Below, in pieces: positions 9,301 through 20,385 of a stretch of 64,000 bases of DNA. The position numbers were made by a program, and so were the translations under genes. The number at the start of each line of letters is the position of its first letter. Positions within the stretch are counted from its first letter, which is position 1. The notes beneath the pieces were generated by a model, which was given only the letters and a program-made list of their open reading frames with translations, ran no database searches and was not told where the DNA came from. Origin of the DNA: Lachnospiraceae bacterium. Lineage in GTDB: Bacteria; Bacillota; Clostridia; Lachnospirales; Lachnospiraceae. The stretch is taken from assembly GCA_022510565.1 (NCBI GenBank), contig JAFLTE010000002.1, forward strand, positions 62,001 to 126,000, in the 5' to 3' direction.

Positions 9301-9675
9301 TTACCTATGGTTAATCATTTCCTTGATTGCTGCGATTTCTTCCCGCCGCAGTGGTCTTGCCTGTATCAGCGCGGAAATTAACTCATCCGCTTTGCCACTG
9401 CACCAGAAGTCCACATAGTCGCTGGTCAACTGCCCCTTATACTCCTCCAACGGAATTAGAATCTTATAGAAGAATACACGGCCTTGGCGGTAGTGTCTCA
9501 AATATCCTTTTCTTACAAGACGAGCTAAGAAGGTAGATACCGTCTGCGGTTTCCAATTCTTATGGTACTTATCGTTGACTCTCTGCATAATCTCCATAAG
9601 ACTGAGCTCATCAGCGGCATCCCATACAGTTTTCATCACCAACTGCTCACAATCTGTTAAGTTTTCAAGTGTCAT
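9301..9675 (-). CDS. BlaI/MecI-family transcriptional repressor (phage-borne)
   Basis: A 124-residue winged-helix protein. LTDCEQLVMKTVWDAADELSL then ETVSTFLARL-like PQTVSTFLARLVRKGYL and FFYKILIP match the penicillinase repressor (BlaI/MecI) DNA-binding fold. The usual partner, a BlaR1 sensor-protease, is not present nearby. The start overlaps the stop of the helicase-methyltransferase gene by 4 bases. In this phage it probably regulates an early gene; beta-lactam response is not implied. Confidence 0.75.
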   Translation of the reverse strand: MTLENLTDCEQLVMKTVWDAADELSLMEIMQRVNDKYHKNWKPQTVSTFLARLVRKGYLRHYRQGRVFFYKILIPLEEYKGQLTSDYVDFWCSGKADELISALIQARPLRREEIAAIKEMINHR

Positions 9676-12287
9676 AATCTGCCTCCATTTCTCGCTGTCT
9701 CTATAAAATCAAACAACGTTGGCATCTCCATCTCATCCTCTGCTGCCTGCAGGTACCCGACACCGTCACGGAAGTAATCTGCGTTCAATTCGACTCCATA
9801 ACCTTGCCTGTTCATCTTTACTGCTGTCATCGGTACCGTCATAAGCCCTCCGAACGGGTCAAACACCACATCATTCTCATTGGAATATCTGTTGATGATC
9901 CGCTCCACAATATCGATCTGCAAAGGACAGACATGCATCTGCTGTCTCCTGCGGCTCTGGTTGGTATTTAGGGTCCGCATACGGTTAATGTCGTCCCATA
10001 CCTCCAGGTCATTCCAACTGCCCGGCGCCACAACCATGAATGTGGCGGGAAGTTTGCCGTTTTCATCCAGCTTCTTTGCAAGTTCTACGTGTTCGCGATA
10101 GTTATAGACATTTTCACGGCTGTACTGTCTGTATACCCGCTGAAGGTTATCCACGGAAATGCTTTCCAATTCATCCTTTGCAATCAGCCTATCTCCGGAG
10201 CTGCGCCAGTATCCATGCGCATCAATCTGCCACTGTGCCCTTGTATAATCTTCTTTACTCTTAACTACCGGTTCATCCGCATATGCCGTTGAACGGTCCG
10301 TTGGTAACTTTCTAAAAAGGAGTATGTATTCCGGGCATCCGACACCCATCTTGGAGCCGTCCTTGCACTGCTCAGTCCATCCTAAACGGTAAGTCTGGTT
10401 GTTTTCCCGCACAACATCCGTTACCACGGTAATCATCCCAAAATACTGGAATCCGTGCTTCATATAGTGACTGATGCACAGCGCGTGAAACGGTTCCACT
10501 GTAGGCATTCCTGTTCCCGTGGTGTTGCCAAATAGCACTCTGTCCTTTACATGAATTGCTGCCACTCTTCCCGGCTTTAAAATACGCAGAAGCTCCGGCG
10601 TAAGGAAATCCATCTGTTCAAAAAACCTCTCTGTATTCTGGTTATGCCCGAAATCATTATAATTGGCCGAGTATTCATAGTGGTTTCCGAATGGTATTGA
10701 TGTATGGATTAAATCAATGCTACTGTCTTTCATTCTCTTCGTTTCTTCCACGCAATCATCGTTTACGGCCGTGTATCTGTTTCCTTCAATCTTCACTGTT
10801 TCCACTCCCATCTTCCTTTGCAGTGCATATTGCTTTCCTGCGCCGGACAAACCGTATTTCTTGACTATCTCAATCATCTTTGCAACCATATGGTTATGTT
10901 TTTTCCATTTTTCCAGCAACACCTCTTTAATCTGCCTTTCATCTTCCCGATAGATGATATCAATGACTACCGGCTTTTCCTGCAAGAACCGATAACACCG
11001 ATGGATCGCCTGAATGAAATCATTAAACTCAAAATCTATCCCAAGGAATATCTCCCTATGGCAGTGCTTTTGAAAGTTACAGCCTGATCCGGATAATGAT
11101 TTCTTGGTGGCAAATAGCCTTGTCCTTCCCTCGGAGAAATCAATCACCCTCTTTTCTCTTATGTCATAATCCATAGAGCCGTATATATCCACAGTCTCAA
11201 GCAGCGCCTTTTTGATGGCGTGGCGTTCTGCTTCAAGGTCATGCCATAAAAGGAAGTGGTCTTCCGGGGAAGCATCTACCAACTCTTTCATCTTCTGCAC
11301 CCGCGCATCGATGCTTTCGCGTTTGACTTCTGCCGCTTCTTTTAATCCTGCTGCCGCATTGGTAAAAAGGGATATCTGGCCGTCTTTATCTTTTGATTCC
11401 CCGTATGATACGGGAAGCTCGTGCCAGCGTACCTCAAGCGGCGGCAACACATACCCATCATCCGAATAATCAGGAGATATGTCAGAGGGCTTTGTGATAA
11501 ACAATGCCCAACTGCTCACCCATAGCCAGAATTCATCTTCCATGTTCGGGTAGAGGGTCAGGTTATTTGCCTTTGTACTGTCCCGCTGGAAGAACCGTGT
11601 CAGTGCCTGCCCCGTGTCCATTACTTCCAAGTATCCGGCATAATGAATCAGCTCTTTGTACTTGTTCGGTGACGGTGTCGCCGTGGCAACCAGCTTATAA
11701 GGAACACCCTTGAACTTATCAAGGAAAGTCTGATAGGTCTTGCTGCCGAATGACCGCAAAACACTGGCCTCGTCAAGGCTTGTTGCGGAAAAGTATGTAG
11801 GGTCAATGTCGCCGTCACGTACACGCTCATAGTTTGTAAGCAATATCGTACCTGCTGCTGCCTCTACTTCCTGCATGTTGCGCACATATGTCGGAGTCTC
11901 ATAGCCTAATATTTCCACTGCATCCCGCGTAAACTCCTGTTTTACGCCTAAGGGAAGCACAATCAGCGCTTTACCGCCGGCATATTTGACTGCCTGATAG
12001 CAGAACTCCAATTCCTGTATTGTCTTCCCAAGTCCGAAAGACTCAAACAGTGCTCTTCTGCCGCCTTTCAGCGCCCATGCCACCGCATCGCGCTGGTGTG
12101 GCTTTAATGCCATATTTAGTTTTGAAGGTTCAATCTCGAAACCGCTGTCTTTAGCAATCTCAATCTTTGTTTTTAAGAAATCTAAGTATTCCATTACCTG
12201 AAAGAAGCTGTATACACTTTCGCCGGCCGGGCTGTTGCTCCTTTCTGATTGATGATAGTATTCAAACGTTATGTGTCCCTTTGTCAC
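9672..12287 (-). CDS. Fused SNF2-like helicase and adenine DNA methyltransferase
   Basis: An 871-residue protein. Residues ~60-450 are a superfamily 2 ATPase: LKPHQRDAVAWAL, Walker A ESFGLGKT, DExx-like TSLDEAS, motif III VATATPSP, and C-terminal helicase motifs (SGSGCNFQKH, QAIHRCYRF). Residues ~520-870 are an amino-DNA methyltransferase of the beta type: catalytic DLIHTSIPFGN (a DPPY variant), ILKPGRVAAIHVKD, and the AdoMet loop DVVFDPFGGLMT. It overlaps the cytosine methyltransferase gene by 4 bases. The pair may protect phage DNA from host restriction; no nuclease is evident in it. Confidence 0.85.
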   Translation of the reverse strand: MTKGHITFEYYHQSERSNSPAGESVYSFFQVMEYLDFLKTKIEIAKDSGFEIEPSKLNMALKPHQRDAVAWALKGGRRALFESFGLGKTIQELEFCYQAVKYAGGKALIVLPLGVKQEFTRDAVEILGYETPTYVRNMQEVEAAAGTILLTNYERVRDGDIDPTYFSATSLDEASVLRSFGSKTYQTFLDKFKGVPYKLVATATPSPNKYKELIHYAGYLEVMDTGQALTRFFQRDSTKANNLTLYPNMEDEFWLWVSSWALFITKPSDISPDYSDDGYVLPPLEVRWHELPVSYGESKDKDGQISLFTNAAAGLKEAAEVKRESIDARVQKMKELVDASPEDHFLLWHDLEAERHAIKKALLETVDIYGSMDYDIREKRVIDFSEGRTRLFATKKSLSGSGCNFQKHCHREIFLGIDFEFNDFIQAIHRCYRFLQEKPVVIDIIYREDERQIKEVLLEKWKKHNHMVAKMIEIVKKYGLSGAGKQYALQRKMGVETVKIEGNRYTAVNDDCVEETKRMKDSSIDLIHTSIPFGNHYEYSANYNDFGHNQNTERFFEQMDFLTPELLRILKPGRVAAIHVKDRVLFGNTTGTGMPTVEPFHALCISHYMKHGFQYFGMITVVTDVVRENNQTYRLGWTEQCKDGSKMGVGCPEYILLFRKLPTDRSTAYADEPVVKSKEDYTRAQWQIDAHGYWRSSGDRLIAKDELESISVDNLQRVYRQYSRENVYNYREHVELAKKLDENGKLPATFMVVAPGSWNDLEVWDDINRMRTLNTNQSRRRQQMHVCPLQIDIVERIINRYSNENDVVFDPFGGLMTVPMTAVKMNRQGYGVELNADYFRDGVGYLQAAEDEMEMPTLFDFIETARNGGRL

Positions 12288-13927
12288 ACAATTTTTACTT
12301 GCGGCTCACTGTAATCAATTATCATACCGGGTGCCCGAACACCTACTTTTAAGTATGGGCAGTTAGCTTCTACCAGTTTCTGAGTTATAATAGGGACTAC
12401 ACTATTACCTATTCTCTTAACCCTTTCGCTGATAGGATATGTACGCCATTTATAATCACGGTCGATGATGTAATCTTTGGGAAATCCCTGTGCCAGTTTC
12501 AACTCCTCTGCCGTCAGCATCCGCAGGAAGATATCCAAAATCACATATTCATTCGCTATGACTGTAATCAAGGCGAATCTGTCCTTAGTAACAATCGTGT
12601 GTAACGGGCCATTTACTGTCTGCCCCGTACCCTGTCCGTAATATTCAATGATGAACTCAGATACCCAGGTACATTTCTTAGCCACTTCCTCAGATACTCC
12701 CGCCTTCAGCAGTTCTTCCAGTTTTATGGTGAGCACTGATACCTGACCAAAGTGTCCGGGGCTTGTTGTAATGGTGTGAATAGGCTCAGACAAACTCTGT
12801 CCGGTACAGGTCGTGTAAAACTTCGTAAGGAACGCCATTACCGCTCCGTAACGATTGCTGGTGTCTATGGTTCTTACCGGCTCCTTAACGGATTGTCCTC
12901 TAACTTCCCTGTCAGACTGTTCGGAATGGTACTGAATCAATATTGGCGCTACAACGCAATGCTCATTCTTTGTGACTATCGTGCTGAGGGGCTCGTCCAT
13001 GCCCCTATTTCTGTCTTTTGTAAACCCTGTCTGTCCTATCTGCATGATGTATGGAGTTGCCAGCCTGTTGTGGTCAACCGTCGTAATCGTATGCAGCGGT
13101 TCATGTATGCTCTGCCCTCTAAAGCAGTCGCCACCATGATTGACCTGCACTATAAAAGGTTCAGGATTCTCAAACACGAACTTCTGCAACCCTCTGGCAA
13201 TTCGCCTCATAGTATTGTCTGCAAGCGGTTTGTTCCTGCCAAATATGGACTTTCCCAAATCAGAGAAATCCAACACCGTACTCACAGGCACCCACTTCTC
13301 AAATCCATCGGTACCACCCTTGTTGTGTGTCTGCTTTGGCCAGACAATCGGCTTTCCGTCTCTCCTGAAGATTGCATACCAGCGTTTTCGCGTAGTCGGT
13401 GCGCCATAATCAGCTGCTACAAGCTCCCTGCTGTCAAAATCATATCCAAGACTCTTCATCGCTGTAATGAATCTCTGATACTCCTCTCCTTTTCGCTCTT
13501 TTATTGGAAAACCCTGCTCATCCAATGGTCCCCACTGCTGAATCTCTTCCACATTTTCCATGATGATGACATCCGGAAGTATTGTCTTGGCGTGCTTATA
13601 AACCGCCCATGGCAGTATTCTTAATCCGGAATTTCTCGGTTTTCCGCCTTTTGCCTTGCTGTGGCTCGTACAATCAGGGCTTGCCCACATCAGTGCTACG
13701 CGTCTGCCGTCAACATATTTCTGCAAATCTACTTCGAAAATGTCCTCTGTCAGATGCAGAGTATTGGGATGATTCGTTTTATGCATCAAGATGGCTGAAT
13801 GGTCGTGATTGATTGCTATATCTACCGGTCTGCCCAGAGCCATTTCGATTCCAACGCTGGCACCACCGCCGCCGGCGAAACAGTCAATTATCAAATCTCT
13901 GTCTTTAAATAGAGCTTCTTTACCCAT
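12284..13927 (-). CDS. C5-cytosine DNA methyltransferase with repeat-rich recognition region
   Basis: A 547-residue Dcm-type enzyme. Motif I LIIDCFAGGGGASVG, motif IV SPDCTSHSKAKGG (catalytic Cys in a PDC variant of the usual PCQ), motif VI MENVEEI, motif VIII near TRKRWYAIF and motif X ERVKRIGNSVVP are visible. The target-recognition region (~265-470) holds five copies of a motif like GQSIHEPLHTITT at roughly 45-residue spacing. It overlaps the helicase-methyltransferase downstream and the HNH gene upstream. Probably modifies phage DNA against host restriction; no cognate restriction enzyme seen. Confidence 0.85.
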   Translation of the reverse strand: MGKEALFKDRDLIIDCFAGGGGASVGIEMALGRPVDIAINHDHSAILMHKTNHPNTLHLTEDIFEVDLQKYVDGRRVALMWASPDCTSHSKAKGGKPRNSGLRILPWAVYKHAKTILPDVIIMENVEEIQQWGPLDEQGFPIKERKGEEYQRFITAMKSLGYDFDSRELVAADYGAPTTRKRWYAIFRRDGKPIVWPKQTHNKGGTDGFEKWVPVSTVLDFSDLGKSIFGRNKPLADNTMRRIARGLQKFVFENPEPFIVQVNHGGDCFRGQSIHEPLHTITTVDHNRLATPYIMQIGQTGFTKDRNRGMDEPLSTIVTKNEHCVVAPILIQYHSEQSDREVRGQSVKEPVRTIDTSNRYGAVMAFLTKFYTTCTGQSLSEPIHTITTSPGHFGQVSVLTIKLEELLKAGVSEEVAKKCTWVSEFIIEYYGQGTGQTVNGPLHTIVTKDRFALITVIANEYVILDIFLRMLTAEELKLAQGFPKDYIIDRDYKWRTYPISERVKRIGNSVVPIITQKLVEANCPYLKVGVRAPGMIIDYSEPQVKIV

Positions 13928-14890: not shown

Positions 14891-15385
14891 TCATGTGTTC
14901 CATTCCGGTACCGGCACGTCTGTAAAAGTGCCCTCTTCCGGAGGTTCGTGTTCCAGTTCCATTTCTTTCTTAATCCTGCCCTGCATACACTGTCTGTAGG
15001 TATGCTCCGCATCCTTCCATTCGGTCACGTGCTTTTCCAGCAGGTCGGCACACTTATTCCACGCCTCCGCGTCTTTTACCATCCTGCCCTTGGCATTGAC
15101 CCACCCGTCTTTCCGCCACTGCCAGAGCCAGTGATTCTGCATGGTCCTCAAAACGTGTCCGCATTCAGTAAATACTATGACGCAACAGGTTTTCGTCAGT
15201 ATGGAAAAAGCCTTTTCAACCAGCCTCAAAGCCAGCTCATTTTCCGTGGTCCTGTCTGCATACAGGATGCCGCCCCTTGTAACCGGCCTGCCTGCCTTGG
15301 ACAGATATTCCACCATCCATGCACCTGCTGCCTGCTTCTTGGCCGGACCTCTGAATGATGTCTCTATGTATATGTTCACGTTCAT
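14891..15385 (-). CDS. RNase H-like phage protein
   Basis: A 164-residue protein with an RNase HI-like arrangement: beta hairpin NIYIETSFRGPAKKQAAGAW, the acidic helix TTENELALRLVEKAFSIL, and strand VIVFTECGHVLRTM then NHWLWQWRKDGWVNAKGRMVKDAEAW. The usual DxS and D/N catalytic positions are replaced by Glu in two places (IET, FTEC), so activity is uncertain. The segment on residues 70-110 mirrors the positions where RNase HI binds hybrids. It overlaps the Rep gene by 4 bases, linking it to phage replication. Confidence 0.65.
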   Translation of the reverse strand: MNVNIYIETSFRGPAKKQAAGAWMVEYLSKAGRPVTRGGILYADRTTENELALRLVEKAFSILTKTCCVIVFTECGHVLRTMQNHWLWQWRKDGWVNAKGRMVKDAEAWNKCADLLEKHVTEWKDAEHTYRQCMQGRIKKEMELEHEPPEEGTFTDVPVPEWNT

Positions 15386-16152
15386 CCGTCGTCACCTTCT
15401 TTCCCTCTCTTCCCGGTATTTATCAGCCTGCGGATGGTATAGTGCTGTACCGGATACCCTGTCACCGGGTTCATGCCGTTCCAGATGCTGTCCTTGACCA
15501 CGTACCATCCCCTTGGTGCCACAGGCGGATTCCGCCACTTCCTGCGCCGGATCAGTTCCCGGTGTGGCTGCGGCACGGCCAGGTTTCGGCTTCTGGAATA
15601 AGTACACCACCCACACTCTTCCTTGGTCTCCGCTTTGACGATGTACTCTGCCAGTTTCTCATACTCCCCGTCCTCATACAGTGAGGAGAAGAACTGTCCA
15701 CCGTGGGCCCACAGCTTTTTTACCAGCTCCACGGTGCAGACTCCGTCCCAGTTGATGTCCTCTATAATCAGGTGGTGATGGAGCACCTGACCTTTTTTGC
15801 CACGCTCCGTCACCGCGATCCACCTAAACGGTATCCCCGCCTTTTTATAAATGTCCCTCAACTTATCAAGGAACTTCCTGCGGTGTATCTTTGCCTCCTC
15901 ATAGGTCTCCGGCCGTTCTCCCTTCCCGTACTTCAGGATCAGGTGCCAGTCTCCTTCGTGGAAATTGGCCAGTATGATCCGCTGCACCTTTCTCCATCGG
16001 TTCGTTTCGTTCTGCCTCTGTATATCCGCCGGCGTTCTCTTCTGCTTTTTAGACCTCTCCTTCCCCGGTGCTCCATAATTACCCGGATAGTACTTCTCTA
16101 TTTGCCGTATGACACCCATGTCATATGTAACTTGCCTGTAAATGAATATCAT
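15382..16152 (-). CDS. HUH-type replication initiator (Rep) of the prophage
   Basis: A 256-residue protein. HEGDWHLILKYGKGERP begins the catalytic domain, and GQVLHHHLIIEDI holds the metal-binding His-hydrophobic-His motif. The segment LAEYIVKAETKEECG supplies the nicking Tyr candidate. This fits rolling-circle Rep proteins and relatives found in many Lachnospiraceae phages. The start is uncertain: ATG 16152 or an internal ATG (MGVIRQIEKYY, about 16119). Three inverted repeats, including a predicted antisense RNA and an attenuator, lie directly upstream, which suggests copy-number control. Confidence 0.65.
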   Translation of the reverse strand: MIFIYRQVTYDMGVIRQIEKYYPGNYGAPGKERSKKQKRTPADIQRQNETNRWRKVQRIILANFHEGDWHLILKYGKGERPETYEEAKIHRRKFLDKLRDIYKKAGIPFRWIAVTERGKKGQVLHHHLIIEDINWDGVCTVELVKKLWAHGGQFFSSLYEDGEYEKLAEYIVKAETKEECGWCTYSRSRNLAVPQPHRELIRRRKWRNPPVAPRGWYVVKDSIWNGMNPVTGYPVQHYTIRRLINTGKRGKEGDDG

Positions 16153-16182
16153 CCCCTAACTTTAATATCTTTATTGGCTGTG

Positions 16183-16222
16183 AAAAACCGCAAAAATCCT
16201 TGATTTTTCTTGACTTTTGCGG
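16183..16222 (-). promoter_or_regulatory. Attenuator-like hairpin ahead of rep
   Basis: Minus-strand inverted repeat CCGCAAAA/TTTTGCGG (16188-16222) with TTTTTC directly after it has the form of an intrinsic terminator between the candidate antisense RNA and the rep start codon. This is where attenuation of rep would occur if the antisense RNA changes leader folding. Confidence 0.45.
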
Positions 16223-16244
16223 TCCCGGATGATATCATATTTAT

Positions 16245-16300
16245 AGTTGAATATGTCTCATCCGAGATGTTGGAACTGCCCCGTTGCCGCGGGGCTTTTT
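16245..16300 (+). ncRNA. Candidate countertranscribed RNA of rep leader
   Basis: A plus-strand TTGACT (16210-16215), 17-bp spacer, TATCAT (16233-16238) promoter points toward a stem GCCCC/GGGGC with a T5 tail at 16278-16300. The predicted transcript (~55 nt) is complementary to the rep mRNA leader. This architecture is that of antisense copy-number control RNAs of rolling-circle plasmids. It is a prediction from sequence only. Confidence 0.4.
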
Positions 16301-16329: not shown

Positions 16330-16692
16330 CTAATATGTCCTGACGTTCCGCACTTCGCCGTCACTATCAATAAATTCATCAACGCCGCCCGGTGCTGCAG
16401 GTCTCAGGTGAAGCTCATCGTAGGTCATATTTTGCCGGATGCACTCATAAGATGCCTTTTCCACCATTGCCTCTGGGAAAAGCCCGTCTTTCAATTCTTC
16501 CCTGTCGTCCTTGTATGTCCTGTTTCCAAAAAGCTCTATCATATCCGCATCCGGAAGTTCCATGAACACTGCTACCGTCCGTGCCCGGAAGTATGTAAAC
16601 TTCGCCGCCGCCCAGTCCTGCTTCCTGCAAAGCTGCGTAAACCGCTCTGCATACTCGTACAGTTTATTTCTTGCCTGCCTTTCGTTCAGCAC
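16330..16692 (-). CDS. Phage early hypothetical protein
   Basis: A 120-residue protein. RQARNKLYEYAERFTQLCRKQDWAAAKFTYFRARTVAVF is a helical pattern that recurs in Lachnospiraceae phage early proteins. It contains MIELFGNRTYKDD and a proline-rich end. It precedes rep, with a 177-bp non-coding region of three inverted repeats between them. No biochemical function can be assigned. Confidence 0.5.
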   Translation of the reverse strand: MLNERQARNKLYEYAERFTQLCRKQDWAAAKFTYFRARTVAVFMELPDADMIELFGNRTYKDDREELKDGLFPEAMVEKASYECIRQNMTYDELHLRPAAPGGVDEFIDSDGEVRNVRTY

Positions 16693-18783: not shown

Positions 18784-20385
18784 ATGCCAAAATCTATACT
18801 GGACAAAATTGTTGAAAAGAGAAAAATGCCTGTGCTATTTATTGGTTCAGGGATTTCCAAGCGTTATTTATATGGTTTTCCTGATTGGGAAGGCTTATTA
18901 AGAGATTCTTTTAAATCTGTAAATCCTGATCCATACTATTACAATCGTTATGTAGAACAATTTAAACGTGAGGGAAATTCTCCCTTTGAGATAAATACTA
19001 AATTGGCTACTATAATCGAAAATGATTTTAATGCTGCCTTCTATGCTAGAAAAATAAAAATAAAAATAGGAAACACTAAAAATCCAAAATGGGTTGACCA
19101 GGGGGTTTCTCCTTATAAAATGTTTCTTGTAAGTTACTTTAAAAAACTTAAGGTCAATTCAGACCCATTATTATTACAAGAAATAGAATCTTTCCGTTTG
19201 TTAAAAAACAAGATATTAGCTGTAATAACAACAAATTATGATACATTTATAGAATCAGAAATTTTAAGAGATGATTATCAGGTATTTTGTCACCAAAATG
19301 AACTTTTTTCTGCTGATAGTTATAATATAGCTGAAATATATAAAATTCACGGAAGTGTATTAGATGCTAAATCGCTTGTTATAACAGAAAAGGATTATGC
19401 TGATTTCAACTCATCCAGAAAACTGATCATAGCCAAAATGCTGACCCTTTTCGCGGAATCTCCCATTATATTTATGGGTTATTCATTTACGGATGAAAAC
19501 ATTCAACATATCATAGAAGATTTTTTGAATTGCTTGACAGTAAAAGAACTGTCAATAATAGGCAATCATTTTGTTTTTATTAGCTATAAGAAGGGCGAAA
19601 AACGTCTGCTAGAGACCAAGCGTACTATATTTACCTCAAACAAAATAGAAATTCCTATTACAGAAATAACGACGGATAATTATGGTGCTATATACGAGAA
19701 GCTCAACAATATCATTCCGGGCATTGCTGCATCGCGTGTTCGTGAAACCCGGAAAATCATAAAACAAATTGTAGATCAGAATATTACTAATGAATCCGCA
19801 GAGTCAGTTATCGTAGATATTGATGATTTGGATAATATTGATCTTTCAACAAAGCCGTTAGCTATTGCAATCGGCTATCGTGACTCAATTTTAAACAAAG
19901 TCGGATATGGCATATTAGATGTGGATTCAATAATAGAAGATATACTTTTTGACAACAAAAAACTTAATGCGGATAATATGTGCTTTGATAGGTTTAAGTC
20001 AATATCTTCAACTCATTTGATACCTGTTTTTAAGTATGCAAAAGGGTGTACTGTACCTATTCCTTCCTCAAGTAAATTGAACGACTATATAAATGCTCGT
20101 AACTCCATAGATAAAATTATTTCAAAATCGCAGTTAAAATCTATAAATGCATTACCAACTGCATCTACTATTGATGAGCTACATACCGCGATGAACAGTC
20201 AAAACTCGTTCGACAAAAAGGCCGGCGTTCTTTTAAAAAGTATCGGTAATTTTACAATTGATGAAATCAGAACAGAGTGCCAGTCACTTTTCCGTGAAAT
20301 CAGCGGTACGAAAATTACATCTACTTGTTTCAAACGATGTGTTATGTATATCGATTTCAAGGAAAACTACACAAAAAAAAGTTAA
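18784..20385 (+). CDS. SIR2-domain protein, candidate anti-phage defence
   Basis: A 533-residue, AT-rich protein. Residues ~10-260 form a SIR2-type NAD-binding fold: VLFIGSGISKR near the start, then AVITTNYDTFIES, IYKIHGSV and MGYSFTDENI. The remaining ~270 residues have no recognised domain and might sense infection. Bacterial SIR2 defence proteins of this type hydrolyse NAD+ and cause abortive infection. It sits between the prophage repressor and integrase, a common site for lysogenic conversion genes. The domain is clear; the defence role is inference from family and position. Confidence 0.75.
   Translation: MPKSILDKIVEKRKMPVLFIGSGISKRYLYGFPDWEGLLRDSFKSVNPDPYYYNRYVEQFKREGNSPFEINTKLATIIENDFNAAFYARKIKIKIGNTKNPKWVDQGVSPYKMFLVSYFKKLKVNSDPLLLQEIESFRLLKNKILAVITTNYDTFIESEILRDDYQVFCHQNELFSADSYNIAEIYKIHGSVLDAKSLVITEKDYADFNSSRKLIIAKMLTLFAESPIIFMGYSFTDENIQHIIEDFLNCLTVKELSIIGNHFVFISYKKGEKRLLETKRTIFTSNKIEIPITEITTDNYGAIYEKLNNIIPGIAASRVRETRKIIKQIVDQNITNESAESVIVDIDDLDNIDLSTKPLAIAIGYRDSILNKVGYGILDVDSIIEDILFDNKKLNADNMCFDRFKSISSTHLIPVFKYAKGCTVPIPSSSKLNDYINARNSIDKIISKSQLKSINALPTASTIDELHTAMNSQNSFDKKAGVLLKSIGNFTIDEIRTECQSLFREISGTKITSTCFKRCVMYIDFKENYTKKS

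Follow-up and report, generated by a model that had tools for sequence, protein, structure and literature searches.

Translation of the HUH replication initiator of a tailed prophage is probably limited by a small antisense RNA encoded in cis, directly upstream of the initiator gene rep. The window in which this was found is a stretch of 64,000 nucleotides from the metagenome-derived draft genome of a gut-type Lachnospiraceae bacterium, and the 177-base non-coding gap in front of rep holds all the elements listed in a first-pass annotation of the same DNA, which had been made from the sequence alone. The arrangement of these elements, their conservation across Rep loci and a complementarity that is specific to each locus are described below. 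Translational masking of the rep start, as proposed for the staphylococcal plasmid pSK41, is the mechanism which fits best with these sequence data.

The rep gene and its prophage

By sequence, the product of rep (15382..16152, minus strand, ATG at 16150-16152) is an HUH initiator of the REP_ORF2-G2P kind with predicted catalytic activity. It matches PF23343 above the curated cut-off (44.8 bits, cut-off 27.8, E 1.5e-11) and the replication initiation protein family phrog_3584 (E 4e-49), and the HUH metal motif H124/H126 and the catalytic-tyrosine region Y169..K172 are invariant across 12 homologues. PF23343 being its sole Pfam match, Rep is not an initiator of the Rep_trans type, nor is it, as an HUH protein of a tailed prophage, a RepA_N initiator of theta plasmids. 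A search of solved structures with Rep gave no match, and no Rep homologue was found in the plasmid collection searched.

Approximately 1-22 kb of the window are part of a tailed prophage, as the first-pass annotation had claimed. Genes for a minor head protein, an HNH endonuclease, the portal and the terminase lie at 1-6 kb, a helicase-methyltransferase and a C5 methyltransferase at 9.7-13.9 kb, a cro-like gene and a CI/S24 repressor at 17.7-18.7 kb and a serine integrase at 20.7-22.1 kb. The portal family PF04860 was matched in 7 of 20 viral records, which is a partial check only, since the model misses many portals. The modification genes (9675-13927, minus strand), an SNF2 helicase fused to an N6/N4 methyltransferase followed by the C5 cytosine methyltransferase, are unusual in being fused and belong to the early operon. 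An RNase H-like gene (14894-15385, minus strand) shares 4 nt with the end of rep, and translational coupling of the two is possible. A SIR2-domain protein is encoded between the genes for the CI-like repressor and for the integrase (18784-20385, plus strand); its best match is PADLOC PDC-S25 (E 1e-113), a candidate defence family, and it is likely a prophage-borne anti-phage defence.

On the sense strand of the 121 upstream regions compared in this work no rep promoter stood out above the level of shuffled sequences. The gene has no detectable promoter of its own; its expression probably comes by read-through of the early leftward transcript, for which a strong promoter match (17975-17947, minus strand, 11/12) is present beside the cro-like gene. 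The gene upstream of rep (16330-16692) has no Pfam or PHROG match, and no CopG-like gene was recognised directly upstream.

The antisense RNA gene and its conservation

The plus-strand promoter reported in the first-pass annotation (16210..16238, 10/12 matches) is composed of TTGACT (16210-16215), a spacer of 17 nt and TATCAT (16233-16238), with a TG extension at 16230-16231. It is followed, again as annotated, by an intrinsic terminator (16278..16300) with a 7-bp GC stem GCCCCGTTGCCGCGGGGC (16278-16295) and five T (16296-16300). With a 5' end placed about 7 nt past the -10 element, the predicted RNA gene covers 16245..16300 on the plus strand, and the transcript would thus be about 56 nt long, close to the 55 nt annotated, and is predicted to fold as two hairpins (-22.5 kcal/mol, z -3.4). 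It is complementary to the part of the rep leader that lies 93-148 nt ahead of the start codon. No family of Rfam 15 was recognised, the best hit having 13.3 bits against a gathering score of 46.6 (E 2.7).

Within the window promoter matches number 11 against 6.8 expected and terminator matches 4 against 3.5, which is near the chance rate, so that the scan of a single window was dropped as evidence on its own; the matches gain their significance from conservation across Rep loci. Since the single-window matches were near background, Rep homologues were collected from genomes and viral contigs and reduced to 121 non-redundant upstream regions, reaching down to about 30% Rep identity. The antisense strand carries the complete module, defined as a sigma70 promoter near the conserved motif adjoining rep plus a terminator and compared with dinucleotide shuffles, in 81 of the 121 loci; the sense strand has it in none, and the shuffles in 0.08%. 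These counts strongly support the annotated reading of a predicted antisense RNA directed against the rep leader, and they answer the suggestion made there to look at the same region in related phages, where the module is kept in about two thirds of the loci.

The single elements behave in the same way. Promoter scores of at least 10 occur on the antisense strand in 59.5% of the 121 loci; the sense strand reaches them in 1.7% and the dinucleotide shuffles in 2.1%. Of the 90 loci scoring at least 9, 78 have a spacer of 17 nt and 66 have the TG extension. The promoter mostly lies about 40 nt from the conserved motif. A strong antisense terminator is found in 92% of the 88 promoter-positive loci versus 6% of shuffles, while the opposite strand of these loci has no terminator at that score, and the median distance from the transcription start to the end of the stem is 57 nt. 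The published, virion-derived genomes of two Latilactobacillus phages (OQ240258, OP455940) carry a comparable antisense promoter upstream of rep, together with a terminator visible by eye; their virions came from induced lysates. From the locus counts and these phages it follows that the predicted antisense RNA gene is conserved well beyond the genus. A motif scan of viral contigs gave, among the matches listed, mostly chance hits. The start codons used here come from a script, some of its calls (8 TTG) being doubtful. The loci are related to each other; thinning at three thresholds left the pairing result given below unchanged.

Leader arms, rep start and hairpin

Segment-by-segment pairing tests gave two alternative partners for one stretch of the leader. 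Arm 2 (GATATCATCCGGGA, 16223..16236, minus strand), located in the spacer and -10 element of the antisense promoter, can pair either with arm 1 (TCTCGGATGA, 16258..16267, minus strand), which is inside the antisense target, or with the translation start region of rep (GGATGATAT, 16146..16154, minus strand), which comprises the end of the Shine-Dalgarno sequence and the ATG and is complementary to the part GATATCATCC of the window's arm 2. In a cross-locus permutation of 51 divergent loci, in which the segments of each locus were compared with those of other loci, arm 2 fits its own arm 1 with z 17.6 and its own rep start with z 9.8, against z 1.1 for control coding sequence. The predicted fold of the window likewise joins the two arms. 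Scanned along rep, the complementarity to arm 2 is highest at the start codon (z 10-11), and in the direct-repeat orientation the same scan gave no signal.

The start codon itself covaries with arm 2 in the sequences compared. Loci of the window type with an ATG start carry ..ATCATCC in arm 2, and their relatives starting with GTG have ..ATCACCC, with the matching change in both arm 2 and arm 1; in L006 and L007, where the start is ATGGTATC, arm 2 has GATACCAT. One locus, L019, is a natural mosaic of a window-type leader with the antisense RNA and a rep of the other (MPY) type. Leader and rep deriving from different lineages, its arm 2 does not match the start codon, a mismatch that counts against masking and makes this locus a natural test case. 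The N-termini of Rep often read M-P/A-Y (ATGCCATAC / ATGGCATAC) in many loci, including L010, L015 and L257, and these codons look like the promoter's extended -10 element, the complement of which sits in arm 2. RNA pairing may therefore constrain the first residues of the Rep protein.

Folding of the leader is consistent with a switch between the two partners. With the antisense target masked, the expected arm 2:start pairs in the window are predicted to rise from 0.0 to 12.4. Over 73 loci the rise is from 4.9 to 9.0, against 3.4 to 4.2 in controls with swapped arm 2 (p 1.6e-9 for the difference), and masking lowers the accessibility of the start (p 1.6e-7). At least 5 such pairs are expected already in the unmasked leader in 38% of loci, so the predicted switch is not clean everywhere.

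These complementarities could also be read as DNA, the two arms and the copy at the start codon being repeated operators bound by a protein (Rep or a repressor of the Cop kind) and RNA pairing playing no part. Counted in the helices, G-U pairs show no excess over A-C mismatches (10 versus 9, and 4 versus 5); proof of RNA pairing by such an asymmetry was tried and yielded no signal, so that this comparison of RNA with repeated DNA sites lends RNA no support and agrees with operators. Against them, the loop length varies from 2 to 46 nt and the gap between arm 2 and the start from 51 to 108 nt, without phasing, as expected for RNA pairing. Moreover the third copy is complementary in orientation and coincides with the start codon, closely related Reps have different arms, and the antisense promoter and terminator would be left to explain. 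We regard operators as very improbable.

The antisense RNA might also act on the rep start directly, either by its 5' part, which resembles arm 2, binding there in trans, or by blocking ribosomes or provoking RNase III decay without any role of arm 2. The antisense RNA does fit its own rep start (z 8.1, control z -0.9, 51 loci), and there are precedents in the 5' tail of pMV158 RNAII and in the direct blocking proposed for pC194/pUB110 (PMC5703833). However, the full-length target is situated 93-148 nt before the start, and arm 2 complements the start more strongly than the antisense RNA does, which would be needless if the RNA acted directly. This makes direct action quite unlikely.

In the masking mechanism that we prefer, arm 2 of the free leader would be held by arm 1, leaving the rep start open. 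The plus-strand RNA, made constitutively, would anneal to the leader across arm 1, and the freed arm 2 would then pair with the Shine-Dalgarno sequence and start codon of rep and switch translation off. More copies of the phage would mean more antisense RNA by gene dosage, giving a negative feedback in the style of plasmid copy control, and in the lysogen the RNA would silence stray read-through into rep. As rep is probably read from the early operon, the RNA would act within a polycistronic phage transcript; it would be titrated upon induction and would regain control as the phage multiplies its copies.

Between arm 2 and the start codon lies the hairpin that the first-pass annotation had correctly placed on the minus strand before rep, with a tail of five T (16183..16226, -17.5 kcal/mol, z -5.3), and after it the conserved motif GATATTAAAGTTAGG (16155..16169, minus strand), a candidate site for recognition and nicking by Rep. 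The motif has one match at up to 2 mismatches in the 64 kb, and across 77 loci its TATTA is invariant and the next A is kept in 99%. Most loci, antisense-positive ones included, have the centre of the hairpin loop 23-26 nt ahead of the motif, and the hairpin is kept at this distance in 11 of 14 loci without an antisense promoter. Butyrivibrio phage Arawn, which is Siphoviridae-like, carries some lysogeny-type genes and was observed in the lytic cycle, has no good antisense promoter either and yet keeps hairpin and motif. Because the hairpin stands at a fixed distance from the motif also where the antisense RNA is missing, hairpin and TATTAA motif are most likely the origin of Rep; placed immediately ahead of an HUH rep, they have the look expected of a double-strand origin.

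The annotation had instead taken this hairpin for an antisense-controlled attenuator and equated the pattern with pT181. In attenuation of the pT181/pIP501 type, binding of the antisense RNA lets the T-tailed hairpin form and the rep mRNA is terminated. Such a hairpin is indeed present before rep, and hairpins with a T tail occur in 38% of the 55 antisense-positive loci versus 1.5% of shuffles and in 1 of 14 antisense-negative loci. Upon masking, 11 of 65 loci gain the hairpin, with L006 and L007 going from 0.01-0.03 to 0.85. In the window, on the other hand, the hairpin probability is already 0.96 in the free leader and 1.00 with the antisense target masked, and the mean over the 65 loci changes from 0.72 to 0.77, which is not significant (p = 0.20). 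The pT181 pre-emptor was looked for as a conserved feature and found neither by segment pairing nor by masked folding; arm 1 has no locus-specific pairing with the hairpin arms, and the position of the hairpin is unchanged in loci without the antisense RNA. Of the equation with pT181 there stands the predicted antisense RNA to the rep leader, while pre-emption is not supported, and a role of the hairpin as attenuator is unlikely. Considering that the T tail is commoner in antisense-positive loci, the putative origin hairpin may have a second role in termination.

Significance and comparison with known systems

Short antisense RNAs acting in lysogeny and immunity are found in temperate phages, examples being lambda OOP, P22 Sar, the P4 CI RNA and P1/P7 C4. 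To our knowledge none of these controls an HUH initiator by an arm that masks the start codon. Among the papers searched, none describes an HUH rep of a tailed phage under the control of an antisense RNA, and the paper on Latilactobacillus sakei prophages does not mention antisense RNA. We tentatively propose, as a possibility that falls somewhat short of an even chance, a large undescribed class of temperate tailed phages, in Lachnospiraceae and probably in Latilactobacillus, in which plasmid-style antisense RNA controls HUH-initiated replication; a three-way RNA switch would use one arm of the leader to mask the start codon of rep, with this arm also serving as spacer of the antisense promoter, and, given arms that vary in sequence from phage to phage, the RNA may also decide whether closely related phages are incompatible in replication or immune to superinfection by one another. 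The usual view of tailed phages is that replication starts when a repressor is lifted, not that the initiator is metered by a copy-control RNA. An antisense module before an HUH Rep in two thirds of more than a hundred phage-type loci suggests plasmid-style copy control in ordinary temperate phages. It offers a testable route to sequence-specific incompatibility of phages, and the covariation of start codon and arm permits clean tests by compensatory mutation.

Three groups of plasmid systems are the closest for comparison. In pT181 the antisense RNA frees an arm of the terminator from its pairing with a pre-emptor (PMC5703833). Both pT181 RNAI/repC and pIP501 RNAIII/repR have, as predicted for the prophage, an antisense RNA opposite the leader of rep and, right ahead of the gene, a hairpin with a T tail; the prophage differs from pT181 in having no conserved pre-emptor, a hairpin which in the window is not switched by the antisense RNA, and no Rep_trans initiator. 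The second group is that of pMV158 RNAII/repB and pC194/pUB110, where, as may be the case here, a small antisense RNA (48 nt for RNAII) keeps down the translation of a rolling-circle initiator. According to the review PMC5703833, RNAII works on translation via its 5' tail, and for pC194/pUB110 direct blocking by a countertranscript has been proposed. RNAII targets the stretch directly before the ribosome binding site and comes with CopG, whereas in the prophage the target lies 93-148 nt ahead of the start, and no gene resembling CopG was seen next to rep on its upstream side.

The third system is pSK41, a staphylococcal RepA_N theta plasmid whose rep is controlled by RNAI (Kwong et al., reviewed in PMC5703833). 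This RNA of about 83 nt has two stem-loops and a 5' tail and targets the leader about 100 nt before the rep start, and its upstream binding has been proposed to induce a structure hiding the ribosome binding site (PMC5703833). The prophage resembles pSK41 in the two predicted stem-loops of the antisense RNA, in the upstream leader target and in the predicted masking of the start, for which folding (0.0 to 12.4 pairs in the window) and the locus-specific fit (z 9.8) both argue. It is unlike pSK41 in having an HUH initiator in a tailed prophage, an RNA of about 56 instead of 83 nt, a rep seemingly without a promoter of its own and a masking arm shared with the spacer of the antisense promoter. 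By type of initiator the prophage element is a member of none of the pSK41, pT181 and pMV158 systems; judged by analogy, it would resemble pT181 in layout only and work most like pSK41 RNAI.
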